Assembly (NCBI RefSeq): GCF_936928535.1
Contig: NZ_CAKZHY010000055.1
Coordinates: 33,539 to 97,538, forward strand
Source of the DNA: an uncultured Bradyrhizobium sp.
GTDB taxonomy: Bacteria; Pseudomonadota; Alphaproteobacteria; Rhizobiales; Xanthobacteraceae
Length of the DNA stretch: 64,000 bases
Reading direction: 5' to 3'
Shown here one piece after another: positions 3,915-23,026 of the stretch. The translations under genes and the position numbers were made by a program. The first letter of the stretch is position 1; each line of letters opens with the position of its first letter. The notes beneath the pieces are model-generated. The model had not been told where the DNA came from and ran no database searches. It was given only the letters and a program-made list of their open reading frames with translations.

Positions 3915-5075
3915 GTGTCCCGTCTCAAGATCCTGGCGCTGCTACCCCTGGCCGCCGCGCTCAGCGGCTGCAACTACGTCGTGCTGGCGCCAGCCGGCGA
4001 TATCGCGGCGCAACAGCGCGACCTCGTCATCATCTCCACCATCCTGATGCTCCTGATCGTCGTCCCCGTGATGGCGCTGACGGTGCTGTTCGCCTGGCGC
4101 TACCGCCAGTCCAACACATCCGCCCGCTACGAGCCGGATTGGGACCACTCGACCAAGCTCGAGCTGGTGATCTGGTCGGCGCCGCTGCTGATCATCGTTT
4201 GCCTGGGCGCGCTGACCTGGATGGGCACGCATCTGCTCGACCCCTATCGCAACATCGGCCGCATCCATGCGGAGCGCGCCGTGGACCAGTCCAAGGCTCC
4301 GCTCGACGTCGATGTCGTCGCGCTCGACTGGAAGTGGCTCTTCATCTACCCCGACTACGGCATCGCCACCGTCAACGAGCTCGCAGCGCCTGTTGACCGC
4401 CCGATCAACTTCCACATCACCGCGTCCTCGGTGATGAACTCGTTCTACATTCCCGCACTCGCCGGACAGATCTATGCGATGCCGGGCATGGAGACATCGC
4501 TCCATGCCGTGATCAACCACGCCGGCACTTACAGAGGCTTTTCCGCGAACTACAGCGGCGCCGGCTTCTCCGGCATGCACTTCAACTTCCATGGCCTCGA
4601 CGACAAGGGATTTGATAGCTGGGTAGCGCAGGCCAAGTCTGCCCGCGGCTCGCTCGGCCGCGCCGAGTATCTCCAGCTCGAGAAGCCCAGCGAGAACGAG
4701 CCGGTGCGCCGTTGGGGCACGGTCGATTCCGATCTCTACCGCCTGATCCTCAACATGTGCGTCGAGACCGGCAAGATGTGCCAGAGCGAGATGATGGCGA
4801 TCGACGCCAAGGGCGGCAATGGCCATGAGGGCCTGAACAACACCCTGCCGCTGTCCTACGACAAGTACGCCCGCCGCGGCACCGTGCTTGGTCCCGAACC
4901 GACCTTCGTCGTCGGCACCTGCACGCCGGATGCACCGCAAGGCCAGACCACAGCCGCGATCAAGGCACCCCTCGACACCGCGCCGCTCCTCGGAGCCGGC
5001 CTGAAGCGGCCGACCTTCGCGCCGCTGAAGTCCTCGTCCTTCTTCCTGGGACAGCGTCCCAAATCAGACTCCTGA
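3915..5075 (+). CDS. cyoA: Cytochrome o ubiquinol oxidase subunit II
   Basis: Lipobox LSGC; two TM helices; downstream cyoB/C/D; GTG start at 3915. Confidence 0.92.
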
Positions 5076-5100
5076 AGTCAGACTCGTAAAGAGATCCAGC

Positions 5101-7098
5101 ATGTCTCCTGATCTTCTCAAGTTCATCTTCGGCCGTCTCGGCATCGATTCGCTGCCGCTGCACGAGCCGATCTTGGTCGGCACCTTCATCATGGTTGCGC
5201 TCGGCGGCATCACTTTGCTTGCCGGCGTTACTTACTTCCGCCTCTGGGGCTATCTGTGGCGCGAATGGTTCACCACCGTCGACCACAAGCGCATCGGCGT
5301 CATGTACATGATCCTCGGCATCGTGATGCTGCTGCGTGGCTTCGCCGACGCACTGATGATGCGCGCGCAGCAGGCGATGGCCTTCAACGGCTCGGAAGGC
5401 TTTCTGCCGGCCCATCACTACGACCAGGTCTTCACCGCCCACGGCGTGATCATGATCTTCTTCGTGGCGATGCCGCTGGTGACGGGCCTGATGAACTTCG
5501 TTGTGCCGCTGCAGATCGGCGCGCGCGACGTGTCGTTCCCATTCCTGAACAATTTCAGCTTCTGGATGACGGTCGGCGGCGCGGTGCTGGTGATGCTATC
5601 TCTGTTCATTGGCGAATTCGCCCGCACCGGCTGGCTGGCCTATCCGCCACTGTCCAACATCGGTTACAGTCCAGACGTCGGTGTCGACTACTACATATGG
5701 GGATTGCAGGTCGCCGGCGTCGGAACGACCTTGTCCGGCATCAACCTGATCTGCACCATCGTCAAGCTGCGCTGCCCCGGCATGACGATGATGCGGATGC
5801 CGGTGTTCACCTGGACCTCGCTCTGCACCAACATCCTGATCGTCGCCTCCTTCCCCGTCCTGACCGTCGTGCTCGCGCTGCTCTCGCTCGATCGCTACGT
5901 CGGCACCAACTTCTTCACGAACGACTTCGGCGGCAGCCCGATGATGTACGTGAACCTGATCTGGATCTGGGGTCACCCTGAAGTCTACATCCTGGTTCTC
6001 CCGGCCTTCGGCATCTTCTCCGAAGTCACCTCGACGTTCTCCGGCAAGCGCCTGTTCGGCTACACCTCGATGGTCTACGCCACGGTCGTCATCACCATCC
6101 TGTCGTACCTGGTCTGGCTGCACCACTTCTTCACGATGGGCTCGGGCGCCAGCGTCAACTCGTTCTTCGGCATCACCACGATGATCATCTCGATCCCGAC
6201 GGGCGCGAAGATGTTCAACTGGCTGTTCACGATGTATCGCGGCCGCATCCGCTACGAGCTGCCGATGATGTGGACGATCGCCTTCATGCTGACCTTCGTG
6301 ATCGGCGGCATGACCGGCGTGCTGCTGGCGGTGCCGCCGGCCGACTTCGTGCTGCACAACAGCCTGTTCCTGATCGCGCACTTCCACAACGTGATCATCG
6401 GCGGCGTGGTGTTCGGCGCATTCGCCGGCATCAACTACTGGTTCCCGAAGGCGTTTGGCTTCAGGCTCGATCCGTTCTGGGGCAAGTGCTCGTTCTGGTT
6501 CTGGGTCACCGGCTTCTACATGGCCTTCATGCCGCTCTATGTGCTCGGCCTGATGGGTGTGACCCGCCGCCTGCGCGTGTTCGACGATCCCTCGCTCCAG
6601 ATCTGGTTCGTCATCGCCGCAATCGGCGCCGTCCTGGTCTTCCTCGGCATCCTCTCGATGCTGATGCAGTTCGCGGTCTCCTTCCTCAAGCGCGAGCAGC
6701 TCAAGGACGTCACCGGCGATCCCTGGGACGCACGCACGCTGGAATGGGCGACCTCCTCGCCGCCGCCCGACTACAACTTCGCCTTCACTCCCGTCGTTCA
6801 CGACAATGACGCGTGGTGGGACATGAAGAAGCGTGGCTACCAGCGTCCGCTCCTGGGATTCAAGGCGATCCACATGCCCAGCAGCACCGGCACCGGTATC
6901 ATCCTCGCCGGCTTGGCTACCGCGATGGGGTTCGGTCTGATCTGGTACATCTGGTGGCTGGCCGCCTTGAGCTTCATCGCGATGCTCGCCGTCGGGATCG
7001 GTCACACCTTCAACTATCACCGCGACTTCGACATTCCGGCTGACGACGTCATCCGGACCGAGGATGCGCGCACCAAACTGCTCGCCGGAGCCAAGTAA
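5101..7098 (+). CDS. cyoB: Cytochrome o ubiquinol oxidase subunit I
   Basis: Heme-copper oxidase signature [19 protein letters not shown] ... HHFFTMG. Confidence 0.97.
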
Positions 7099-7728
7099 AT
7101 GACTGTCGCTGTCAACCCCACCCAAACCGGCGAGCCGGTCTTCTATCTCGCCGACGAACATCCGCATCCGGAAGGCTACAGCACCTCGCTCGGCTTCTGG
7201 ATCTACCTGATGAGCGATTGTCTCATCTTCGCAATGCTGTTCGCCGCCTTCGGCGTGCTCGGCGCCAACTACGCCGCCGGGCCCGCGCCGAAGGACCTGT
7301 TCGACCTCAACCTGGTTGCGGTGAACACCTCGATGCTGCTGCTGTCATCGATCACCTACGGTTTTGCGATGCTGACGATGCAGCAGAACAAGGTCGCGCA
7401 GACGCAGATGTGGCTCCTGATCACCGGGCTGTTCGGCGCTGCCTTCATCGGCATCGAGCTCACCGAGTTCACCCACATGATCCATGAGGGCGCGACGCCG
7501 CAGCGCAGCGCCTTCCTGTCCGCCTTCTTCACCCTGGTCGGTACCCACGGCCTGCACGTCTCCTGCGGCCTGATCTGGCTGGTGACGCTGATGATCCAGG
7601 TCTGGCGCTTCGGCCTGATCGAAGCCAACCGCCGCCGCCTGATGTGCCTGTCGATGTTCTGGCACTTCCTCGACGTGGTCTGGATCGGCGTCTTCACCTT
7701 CGTCTATCTCCTGGGAGTTCTGCGATGA
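7099..7728 (+). CDS. cyoC: Cytochrome o ubiquinol oxidase subunit III
   Basis: Heme-copper oxidase subunit III pattern (GTHGLHVSCGLIW, FWHFLDVVWI). Confidence 0.95.
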   Translation: MTVAVNPTQTGEPVFYLADEHPHPEGYSTSLGFWIYLMSDCLIFAMLFAAFGVLGANYAAGPAPKDLFDLNLVAVNTSMLLLSSITYGFAMLTMQQNKVAQTQMWLLITGLFGAAFIGIELTEFTHMIHEGATPQRSAFLSAFFTLVGTHGLHVSCGLIWLVTLMIQVWRFGLIEANRRRLMCLSMFWHFLDVVWIGVFTFVYLLGVLR

Positions 7729-8105
7729 GCACCGATAGCCACGCCGCCCACGCCGGCGACCATCACCTCGACGACGGCCACGCCCACAGCACGTTCTCGG
7801 GCTACATGCTCGGCTTCGTGCTCTCGGTGGTGCTGACCGCGATCCCGTTCTGGCTGGTGATGAGCGGCACGCTGCCGAGCAAGCAGATCACCGCGCTGGT
7901 CATCATGGCCTTCGCGGTCGTGCAGATCGTCGTGCATATGATCTACTTCCTGCACATGAGCCCGAAGTCCGAGAACGGGTGGAGCATGATGGCGCTGATC
8001 TTCACCATCGTGATGGTGGTGATCGCGCTATCAGGTTCGCTGTGGGTGATGAACCACCTCAACAGCAACATGATGCCGATTCACGAGATGACGGGAATGA
8101 AGTGA
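7725..8105 (+). CDS. cyoD: Cytochrome o ubiquinol oxidase subunit IV
   Basis: Three-TM small protein overlapping cyoC by ATGA; start trimmed to ATG 7725. Confidence 0.92.
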   Translation: MSTDSHAAHAGDHHLDDGHAHSTFSGYMLGFVLSVVLTAIPFWLVMSGTLPSKQITALVIMAFAVVQIVVHMIYFLHMSPKSENGWSMMALIFTIVMVVIALSGSLWVMNHLNSNMMPIHEMTGMK

Positions 8106-19858: not shown

Positions 19859-20164
19859 ATGTCTCGCCGCTGCGAACTGACGGCCAAGGGCCCCCTCGTC
19901 GGCCACAAGGTCAGCCACTCCAACATCAAGACCAAGCGCCGCTTCCTGCCGAACCTGGTCAACGTGACCTTCATCAGCGAAGCGCTGGAGCGCAACGTGC
20001 GCCTGCGCGTCTCCACCAACGCGGTGAAGAGCGTCGACCACAATGGCGGGCTCGATGCCTTCCTGCTCAAGGCCAAGGCCGACGCGCTGTCCCCGCGCGC
20101 CCTCGAGCTGAAGCGCGCCATCCAGAAGAAGGTCGGCGACGCGCCGGCCAAGAAGGCCAGCTAA
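19859..20164 (+). CDS. rpmB: 50S ribosomal protein L28
   Basis: [33 protein letters not shown]. Confidence 0.97.
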
Positions 20165-20236
20165 GAGATTTTTCGAGTTGGGCGGGGGCTAGGTTGCGTC
20201 GCGTGGCGTAGGCTTAGCCGAGTAGAGTTTGCGTTG

Positions 20237-20274
20237 CGGCCGGGTCGAAAGATCCGGCCGTTTTTGTTTTTGCT
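20237..20274 (+). terminator. Intrinsic terminator downstream of rpmB
   Basis: CGGCCGG-GTCGAAAGAT-CCGGCCG followed by TTTTTGTTTTT. Confidence 0.85.
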
Positions 20275-20337: not shown

Positions 20338-20751
20338 ATGATAATTCAACTAGGGGGTAGTGGGTTGGGGCTCAGTGTCAGCCAGCTGCGGGCCATCGCG
20401 CAGCAGCGCGATCGATATAAAACGCAACTGTCTCGTCTCAAAGAGTCCGGCAAACAGACCTCCTGTATCGAGACGGCCGTCACCAGCGCTTGCGAGACCC
20501 TCAGCAGCAAAACGACTTCATTCGTGATCTACGGCGAGCCGCAGAGCGGCAAAACCGAGATGATGATATGCCTCACTGCAAGGCTCTTGGATGATGGACA
20601 TCGAGTTGTCGTGCACCTTCTGAATGACAGCGTGCAGCTTCTCCAACAAAATCTGGATCGCTTTCAGAGGTCGAAACTTTCACCCGCCGCTCGCAATTTC
20701 TCAGAAGTTATCGACCCCGACTATTCGCTGTCGACCGGGTATAGGAGTTAA
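20338..20751 (+). CDS. P-loop ATPase N-terminal fragment / small ATPase (Z1-helicase-like Walker A region)
   Basis: VIYGEPQSGKTEMMICLTARLLDDGH (Walker A 20533-20556) then early stop; lower GC than flanks. Confidence 0.5.
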   Translation: MIIQLGGSGLGLSVSQLRAIAQQRDRYKTQLSRLKESGKQTSCIETAVTSACETLSSKTTSFVIYGEPQSGKTEMMICLTARLLDDGHRVVVHLLNDSVQLLQQNLDRFQRSKLSPAARNFSEVIDPDYSLSTGYRS

Positions 20752-20755
20752 GACC

Positions 20756-21541
20756 GTGCCCTTCATGCCGAGCCTCGTCCAAGAGGATCAGCTCGGGTTT
20801 GACGTTGGATTTAAGAAGCCCGGCGTGCCAATTCTACTGCAATTCAAGTTGGGCCAATCTTTGCGCCGTTTTGTCCGGAAAGATAAAGGCTATCTGGCTC
20901 CCATACTTGAGAGCCCGTTCTTTCGATTTTCGATCGACACAGCGGAGCCAGATGGACAGTTTGAGACCTTGCTGAAGGCCGAGCAAGACGGCGCCGAAAC
21001 TTACTACGTAGCTCCGCGATTTGCAGATTGGCCTCAATATGCGAGCTTCTTTGAGGCCGGGGCTGTGCTGGAGAATTCTATATCGGTGACCCCAAGCACA
21101 ATCCGCAATGCTCTTGATGCTCGCGAGTCGCCAGATGGAGTTCACCGTATAGTTTACGATACCACCTCTATACACGTTTGTTCGGAGCCCACTCAGGTAA
21201 GTGACACTCGACCTAGTTCACTTGCCGAAAATGTTCGGACTAGATTAGCCGAAGATCCAGGTGACCTTAGCCAAATAGTTCATAGAATTTATGAAGGGTT
21301 TGATCATCGCGCGCTGATCCGGCGTCCCAAGCTAGAGGAATCCGCGCAGGGCGCGTTTGTGTTCTCCATCCACAGTTCGATGGCAGAACGAACGCCCGAG
21401 GCTCAGAGAAAGATTGAGCGTAGCCAGCGATTAGAGCAGTTGCGAGCACGCGCACGCACCGAAGATGATGCATTCGGCGCAGCGCTGGGACTCGAATTAT
21501 GGGCGCTAGGTATCCAATTGCTATTTGCAACCGGAGACTAA
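20756..21541 (+). CDS. Uncharacterised protein with PD-(D/E)xK-like N-terminal motif; start uncertain (ORF open from 20624)
   Basis: EDQLGFDVGFKKPGVPILLQFKL (D at 20801, QxK at 20840-20848); AGGAG 8 nt before GTG 20756. Confidence 0.5.
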   Translation: MPFMPSLVQEDQLGFDVGFKKPGVPILLQFKLGQSLRRFVRKDKGYLAPILESPFFRFSIDTAEPDGQFETLLKAEQDGAETYYVAPRFADWPQYASFFEAGAVLENSISVTPSTIRNALDARESPDGVHRIVYDTTSIHVCSEPTQVSDTRPSSLAENVRTRLAEDPGDLSQIVHRIYEGFDHRALIRRPKLEESAQGAFVFSIHSSMAERTPEAQRKIERSQRLEQLRARARTEDDAFGAALGLELWALGIQLLFATGD

Positions 21542-21643: not shown

Positions 21644-23026
21644 ATGGAGCACGCAGCCAGCCTAGCCCCGAAAAACCTCGTTATCTGCTGCGACGGCACC
21701 GGCAACGAGATCTCGGAGAACATCTCCAACGTCCTGAAGCTCTATCGCTGCCTGCGCAAGACGGACAAGACCTCGCCGCGGCAGATGGTGTTTTACGATC
21801 CCGGGGTCGGCACGGTGACGGAGCCGTCGACCTGGAACAGGTGGAAGGCCAACATCAAGCTGGTGCTGGGGCTCGCCACCGGCTACGGGCTCGATGACAA
21901 CGTGCTCTCGGCCTATTGCTTCCTGATCGAGCATTATGCGCCGGGCGACCGCATCTATTTGTTCGGCTTTTCGCGCGGCGCCTACACCGTACGCGTGCTG
22001 GCGGGGCTGATCCACAAGGTCGGGCTGATCTCGCCGGAGCAGGCGAACCTCGCAGGCTCGGGCCTCGTCGCCTACAAGCAATATTCCGGGCTCGGGCGCG
22101 GCAACGACATCGAGGACCTCAAGAATATCGTGGTCGACGACGAGGGGCCGCTGCCGAAGGACGAGTTCGACCTCGCCGCCCAGTTCGCGCGCATCACCTC
22201 GACGCGCTGGCCGACCATCCACTTCATCGGCGTGTGGGACACGGTGGCGAGCGTGATCGTGCCGCGCCGCGACGTCTTCTTCCTCGTGTTCACCCTGGAG
22301 GAGCTCGCCTTCACGCGGCGCAATCCGAGCGTCAACATCTTCCGCCAGGCGATCGCGATCGACGAGCGGCGCCGCATGTTCCGCCTCAACAAATACTGGG
22401 AGCCGCAGGAGTTCTGGAGCAACCGCTACGTGCCCGACGAGAAGAAGGTGGCGCAGGACATCATGCAGGTGTGGTTTTCAGGCGTGCATTGCGACGTCGG
22501 CGGCGGCTATCCGGAAGCTGTTAGCGCGGAGTCGAAATATCCGCTGATCTGGATGATCGACGAGGCGGAAAAGGCCGGGCTGAACTTCAACAAGCGCACC
22601 GTGAACCAGCTCGCCTGGGGCATCCAGCGCAAGAACTCGCCGTTCCAATATGTCCCGCCTGCCGTCACCGGCGCGTCGGGCGCCTTGCACGATTCGATGA
22701 CCGCGGCCTGGCGCGTGCTGGAAGTTCTGCCGAAGAGCGCGAAATACCGGGAATGGCCTGAGCGGAAGGTGGTGCTGGGATTCTACATTCCCGATTGCGA
22801 ACCGCGCTTCATCCCCGACGGCGCGCATGTGCATGAGAGCGTGATCAAGCGGATGGACGCGGATGCGACGTACCGGCCGGTGAACCTGCCGGCGCAGTAC
22901 GAAACGGTGCCGATGCCGGTGCCGCCGGGGGTGGACCTCGCGGCGGGGGCGGAGGTCGATGAGCGCTCGCTGCCACCCTCCCCTGGAGGGGGAGGGTCGA
23001 CTCACGTTGAGCGTAGCGAAACGTGA
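21644..23026 (+). CDS. DUF2235 domain-containing hydrolase (Tle1-like alpha/beta hydrolase)
   Basis: NLVICCDGTGNE, LFGFSRGAYTVR (GxSxG), FIGVWDTVAS, WFSGVHCDVGGGYPE. Confidence 0.9.
   Translation: MEHAASLAPKNLVICCDGTGNEISENISNVLKLYRCLRKTDKTSPRQMVFYDPGVGTVTEPSTWNRWKANIKLVLGLATGYGLDDNVLSAYCFLIEHYAPGDRIYLFGFSRGAYTVRVLAGLIHKVGLISPEQANLAGSGLVAYKQYSGLGRGNDIEDLKNIVVDDEGPLPKDEFDLAAQFARITSTRWPTIHFIGVWDTVASVIVPRRDVFFLVFTLEELAFTRRNPSVNIFRQAIAIDERRRMFRLNKYWEPQEFWSNRYVPDEKKVAQDIMQVWFSGVHCDVGGGYPEAVSAESKYPLIWMIDEAEKAGLNFNKRTVNQLAWGIQRKNSPFQYVPPAVTGASGALHDSMTAAWRVLEVLPKSAKYREWPERKVVLGFYIPDCEPRFIPDGAHVHESVIKRMDADATYRPVNLPAQYETVPMPVPPGVDLAAGAEVDERSLPPSPGGGGSTHVERSET

Follow-up and report, generated by a model that had tools for sequence, protein, structure and literature searches.

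A low-GC island behind rpmB

Between rpmB and a DUF2235 gene of a Bradyrhizobium genome lies a short island with two open reading frames, ORF1 and ORF2, raising the question of whether these form a compact two-protein system or are what is left of a larger ATPase module. The window, i.e. the whole 64,000-nt stretch of DNA that was analyzed, has a GC content of 0.643 as compared to 0.530 over positions 20338-21541, and only 84 of the 62,797 possible start positions of 1.2-kb segments give 0.530 or less, all of them overlapping the island. The drop in GC after the rpmB terminator, noted in a preliminary description made from the letters of the window, is thus real, with the island representing the lowest-GC 1.2-kb stretch of the window. 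The terminator itself was recovered by a terminator scan, as an 11-bp stem followed by a T-rich tail, and the low-GC cassette begins 3' of it. The DUF2235 assignment of the neighbor was confirmed by Pfam (T6SS_Tle1-like_cat, E 8e-83), and rpmB is detected in 142 of 149 genus genomes. The features are as follows.

19859-20164, forward strand: rpmB (ribosomal protein L28), the conserved left flank, collinear with at least 13 relatives
20236-20261, forward strand: intrinsic terminator of rpmB, from the terminator scan (11-bp stem and T tail)
20338-20751, forward strand: ORF1 as it stands (137 aa), i.e. the gene A fragment, out-of-frame junction codons and a stop
20338-20742, forward strand: 5' fragment of gene A, the first ~135 codons, 96% amino acid identity to the intact G221 protein
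20533-20556, forward strand: Walker A motif GEPQSGKT, read from the sequence
20742-20744, no strand: deletion junction; last position matching A 20742, first position matching E 20742-20744, overlap ~1 bp
20743-21541, forward strand: 3' ~90% of gene E (accessory protein), N-terminal ~30 residues lost
20801-20848, forward strand: D...QFK motif conserved in gene E (D16, Q29, F30 and K31 counted from GTG 20756), invariant in 9 homologs
21644-23026, forward strand: DUF2235/Tle1-like alpha/beta hydrolase gene, the conserved right flank, assigned by Pfam

ORF1 as the start of a DEAD-Z1 helicase

As initially described, ORF1 encodes 137 aa with GEPQSGKT and then stops. Used alone as a query it yields weak P-loop/ResIII matches. 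Matches to it are present in 17 of 272 same-genus genomes (the named records being Bradyrhizobium), the close ones mostly lying in open frames that are longer (654 codons at most); a partial match in G220 at 36% identity was excluded from the A copies. Intact A genes of 618-621 codons occupy the same chromosomal place and are collinear through rpmB. As reference for the parent cassette we used the close relative Bradyrhizobium sp. CCGUVB4N (G221), where a collinear match starts in the gene preceding rpmB, spans rpmB and extends into a 618-aa protein, with 96% identity over 136 residues. This protein harbors the Pfam domains ResIII and Z1 (Z1 E 4.8e-26), and the DEAD-Z1 helicase domains recur in 12 of 12 diverse A members, of which the window retains about the first 136 residues only. 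Across the same 12 homologs the Walker A residues are invariant or nearly so and the DTYIQRARMFG motif is invariant. Since the collinear G221 protein carries ResIII, Z1 and DTYIQRARMFG, ORF1 is the severed start of a DEAD-Z1 helicase, here termed gene A, and the early guess of a Z1-type helicase proved right. The frame stops directly after the Walker A region; both the DEAD motif and Z1 of intact homologs are missing. In the C-terminal domain of A (~residues 460-618), H, N and R residues are conserved, and the domain could be a nuclease.

A single deletion joins gene A to gene E

Relative to G221, ~3.94 kb is missing between the A and E parts. In G221 this gap holds the rest of A, B (160 aa), C (411 aa) and D (186 aa), followed by E. 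The junction is devoid of repeats, and the A and E frames are joined out of phase, with the stop of ORF1 at 20751. The alignment shows the island as the remainder after one ~3.94-kb deletion, by which A codon ~135 was joined to E codon ~30. Assuming a G221-like parent, the deletion took the rest of A, all of B and all of C; with only 57% identity between the window's E and that of G221, the missing part need not equal the G221 one. In the window's genome, a 100% complete assembly, we detected no B, no C and no Z1 domain anywhere, the Z1 control, Corynebacterium glutamicum (home of CglI), being positive. Because B, C and Z1 are absent genome-wide, we regard the locus as a deletion remnant rather than a two-gene system. 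Congruent with this, the second option of the preliminary description, an internally deleted remnant of an ATPase defense module, is upheld by the intact collinear G221 locus together with the lack of B, C and Z1 in the window's genome.

An intact cassette collapsed during assembly would give a similar picture, and the genome was indeed examined as a single draft assembly of 173 contigs. However, the junction is internal to a 97.5-kb contig and lacks repeats that could cause a collapse, B, C and Z1 are absent from the entire assembly, and eight other genus copies have each decayed in their own, different way, making such an artefact extremely unlikely.

ORF2 as a truncated gene E

The open frame of ORF2 was listed as 20624-21541, its first ~40 codons being out-of-frame ORF1 sequence, while the homolog-bearing part starts at the deletion junction, ~20743. 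Possible starts of E are GTG 20756 and ATG 20765, and an AGGAG at 20743-20747, formed at the junction, is located 8 nt before the former. Most E homologs start at a conserved LHERLSEFS, the exception being that of G093, itself at a deletion junction, and LHERLSEFSYGYGVTRE, a segment conserved in most homologs, is lost from the window's E.

The nuclease-like reading of ORF2 draws solely on the D-x12-Q-x-K pattern, which is invariant in E and which we take to resemble the Mrr-type PD-QxK motif, from which an Mrr-like nuclease function may be read. On the other hand, Pfam returned no significant family for ORF2/E, PADLOC no family match, and an AlphaFold model of E from 4 sequences reached a pLDDT of 39, too low for use. 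A Pfam candidate, MutL_C (E 0.047), was judged a chance match.

E is matched in 8 of 272 genus genomes, the window's included: G264, G004, G071 and G155 have it without any A homolog, G221 has it together with A-B-C, and in G137, G093 and the window the A next to it is broken. Gene E is thus an optional accessory protein, separate from A-B-C. No match to E was detected among the viral contigs scanned. In G264 the same site (L042 7592-9388) holds E and a 275-aa low-GC gene (DUF3800-like by eye), without A-B-C.

These data bear on whether anything in the island still works. A compact two-protein system, in which ORF1 would be a small P-loop ATPase and ORF2 its nuclease-like partner, the first of the two options in the preliminary description, is scarcely credible: ORF1 ends at the junction without the DEAD and Z1 parts present in every intact homolog, the ORF1-ORF2 pair is found in no other genome of 272, E homologs occur elsewhere without an ORF1 homolog, and E lacks its first ~30 residues including LHERLSEFSYGYGVTRE; this despite both frames being open, an intact Walker A, a low ORF1 dN/dS (see below) and the AGGAG 8 nt upstream of GTG 20756. 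It is also improbable, albeit conceivable, that ORF1 is dead with truncated E still expressed and functional alone. E homologs do stand without A in the four genomes above, no stop codon interrupts the window's E, in which the invariant D, Q and K are all retained, and GTG 20756 has upstream of it an AGGAG that arose at the junction and resembles a ribosome-binding site, but the LHERLSEFS segment is gone, which would correspond to the first core helix if E has an RE-type fold. As ORF1 keeps Walker A only and truncated E lacks the conserved N-terminal segment, the remnant is most likely inactive.

Selection and decay in the genus

Comparison of ORF1 with its G221 counterpart gave a dN/dS of about 0.06 at a dS of 0.44, with a dN of 0.025 that exceeds the 0.007 between G221 and G053 at similar dS (G180 comparisons, taken in a wrong frame, were left out, and the dS of E is saturated). 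The low ORF1 dN/dS, which had been counted against the remnant reading, is explained by a recent deletion; long purifying selection with such an event after it would be expected to leave dN somewhat raised in this way.

A search for an intact locus with a full-length ATPase, suggested at the outset, was successful: 7 of the 16 A-bearing genus loci are intact for A-B-C (G221, G053, G270, G180, G015, G175 and G059). G180 is counted here because the 'stop' in its tblastn alignment is upstream of the A start, leaving a 609-aa open frame. The remaining 9 of 16 have decayed (the window, G093, G112, G137, G275, G144, G012, G046 and G232). All nine have a broken A, and G137 and G232 retain C; a broken C next to intact A and B is seen at none of the 16 genus loci. 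Such a pattern is what an R-M-type pair of toxic and protective activities would give, an argument on decay order from 9 loci only, in which A is also the largest and first gene. In G012 (L037 7494-10448) the site is rearranged, with a truncated A inverted inside a split DUF2235 gene.

The parent cassette A-B-C

To outline the parent cassette, A was scanned for across 84,980 species' genomes, yielding 96 stretches of which 80 were kept. A is present in Proteobacteria, Acidobacteria, Planctomycetes, Bacteroidetes, Actinobacteria, candidate-phyla bacteria and Nanoarchaeota, the latter with helicase and methyltransferase only and no B detected. Of the 80 loci, 60 have B directly beside A. A methyltransferase is found near A in 72: 69 have C (PF01555 N6_N4_Mtase match, TSPPY motif) and 3 have another methyltransferase with TSPP[YF]; among the other 8, 6 are at a contig end, L052 is a decayed Bradyrhizobium copy, and L092 is the only locus of the 80 with flanks and no visible methyltransferase. 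A MORC-like GHKL gene occurs in 11 of 80 loci, and since 5 of these also have B, we ruled out B as a substitute for the MORC ATPase. Beyond A, B and C, no gene family is present in more than 11 of the 80 loci, and the 80 loci show no conserved separate nuclease near A. Within the genus, all 10 B-positive genomes fall among the 17 A-positive ones (of 272; P 4e-14).

B was modeled from 55 sequences with a pLDDT of 90.7. Its 16 best PDB structure matches are all Hjc-type Holliday junction resolvases, followed by PvuII and RecU, and B therefore very likely has a PD-(D/E)XK fold of Hjc-like type in this model, the best Hjc match having a probability of 0.99 with an E-value of only 0.015 and a TM-score (query) of at most 0.51. 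K51 (55/55), R56 and W60 are invariant. No conserved acid is found across the 55 sequences at the positions expected for the catalytic D and (D/E)xK, the residue two before K51 being mostly Y/F/H. As B is without catalytic acids, no nuclease is identified in the A-B-C core. A Pfam match of B to RNase_P_pop3 (E 0.002) was judged to be chance. PDB sequence searches with A, B and D, and with profiles of A and B, returned nothing meaningful. D of G221 (186 aa; L027, minus strand, 7536-8096) displays a canonical-looking D...ExK by eye, ELDIVAYSGRDNVLSVVECKS, and weak similarity to Card1, making it a candidate nuclease acquired beside A-B-C rather than general to the cassette.

One viral contig (L137, IMG/VR) has a 44%-identical A homolog, the sole A match among the viral contigs scanned, and the cassette may thus travel on phages or prophages.

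The rpmB-DUF2235 interval as a variable, probable defense site

Where rpmB and DUF2235 share a contig and strand, as in 108 genomes, the interval between them spans 252-9,479 bp with a median of 4.8 kb (1,483 bp in the window). The comparison of this interval across relatives, as initially suggested, revealed it to be variable with differing low-GC contents: the 20 intervals that we read (L145-L164) have a low-GC segment, mostly directly behind rpmB, whose genes differ from one interval to the next. Of these, 18 encode one or more proteins matching a PADLOC defense family at E<=1e-8, a count that is not blind as the tested proteins were picked by eye; as control, other window genes gave four family hits at E<=1e-8, on at most 4 of 40 genes. 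The matches at the site comprise Gabija A (E 1e-227), Gabija B (1e-123), IetA/IetS, Dsr1, an RT-Toprim retron type I-C, DndC, QueC, ThsA-like proteins, GHKL/methyltransferase R-M and others. No integrase family was noticed in the intervals, and our literature search found no publication on the site. Throughout the genus this interval varies, being filled by different, mostly phage-defense-related cassettes.

Two genomes, G221 and G053, have a partial copy of the DUF2235 5' end (~210-230 bp) just behind the cassette, and a full or longer copy lies 4.7-5 kb beyond the partial one. This arrangement may be a trace of cassette exchange, in which a donor cassette would have recombined in at a single conserved flank. 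Separately, an FtsZ-like gene (KARIVVFGVGGAGGNA) is present between cassette and DUF2235, in the high-GC part of some long intervals, the shortest intervals being too small for it.

L027 4922-5090 and 1-206, forward coordinates: DUF2235 copies
L030 4289-4520 and 9454-10793, forward coordinates: DUF2235 copies
L153 (reverse complement) 4057-5508: FtsZ-like gene
L160 7062-8423: FtsZ-like gene
L041 8911-10362: FtsZ-like gene

Aggregated, we consider it highly probable that the island is a deletion remnant, most likely inactive, of a restriction-type A-B-C cassette, and as such a dead occupant of a defense hotspot.

A possible mechanism and its implications

A-B-C is most likely an ATP-driven, methylation-guided restriction-type system, kin to CglI/NgoAVII and the MORC-Z1 operons. 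In such a model, C would methylate and so mark the host DNA, B, with a nuclease-like fold lacking catalytic acids, would bind DNA or a DNA structure, and A would be an ATP-driven motor like N.CglI (PMC4267653). Together, A, B and C would act on unmethylated incoming DNA, either through cleavage by the C-terminal domain of A or through DNA exclusion without cutting, both being possible in the model.

Alternatively, the cassette may serve non-nucleolytic, methylation-guided exclusion (with BREX-like logic) or DNA repair rather than cleaving restriction. We hold this to be rather unlikely overall, as the DEAD-Z1 helicases studied so far, those of CglI and NgoAVII, work in ATP-dependent DNA cleavage (PMC4267653) and the conserved H, N and R of A at ~460-618 could form a nuclease, even though B is without catalytic acids, no conserved separate nuclease accompanies A in the 80 loci, and motor and methyltransferase are nearly always present.

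Returning to the restriction-type reading, the feature in the window is itself an ordinary deletion remnant, and it is the parent cassette that is of interest. The dead remnant points to an intact three-gene cassette, spread from Bradyrhizobium to candidate-phyla bacteria, without an obvious nuclease, and whether a DEAD-Z1 motor restricts DNA without a nuclease is a directly testable question. Moreover, the rpmB-DUF2235 interval, where most sampled strains hold a different cassette, represents a ready place to mine for defense genes across this large, crop-symbiotic genus. That A-B-C is a widespread, undescribed three-gene defense with an ex-nuclease as DNA sensor, and the interval an integrase-free, genus-wide hotspot of swapped and decaying cassettes, is a combined view that we deem quite possible, if somewhat short of probable.

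Comparison with known systems

With CglI and NgoAVII the cassette shares a three-gene composition of DNA methyltransferase, DEAD-Z1 helicase and partner protein (PMC4267653). However, the CglI methyltransferase is of C5-type, whereas that of A-B-C is of N4/N6-type (PF01555), and the CglI R protein combines PLD nuclease and B3 domains, whereas the corresponding partner in A-B-C is B, Hjc-like, 160 aa long and devoid of catalytic acids. No R protein with PLD nuclease and B3 recurs in the 80 A loci, B having an RE-type fold in the model.

The third helicase type of Iyer et al. 2008 carries a DThhQXuRhFG motif (PMC2292703). These MORC-Z1 operons share this motif with A, where it reads DTYIQRARMFG, as well as a nearby methyltransferase. 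They possess a MORC GHKL ATPase, which A-B-C loci have in 11 of 80 cases and none in Bradyrhizobium, and their RE-fold partner has E-D-ExK, in contrast to B. By structure comparison Hjc and B probably have the fold in common, and an invariant lysine of B falls where Hjc has that of ExK (by eye), but B is without the catalytic acids and the sequence identity is 6-14%.

The MZA system shares the Z1 domain with A, MzaC being a Z1 protein; against the NCBIfam MzaC model A scores 35.8 bits as compared to a cut-off of 1500, and no other Mza gene was seen. Among the PADLOC type II R-M models, A matches Helicase_II (PDLC03202, 2e-48) and C matches MTase_II (PDLC03322, 3e-31), both partial and moderate, and none of the endonuclease models matches B, D or E. 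By their defining features, the parent cassette is not a member of the CglI/NgoAVII systems or the MORC-Z1 operons; it would be a distinct form of the Z1-helicase restriction-type systems.
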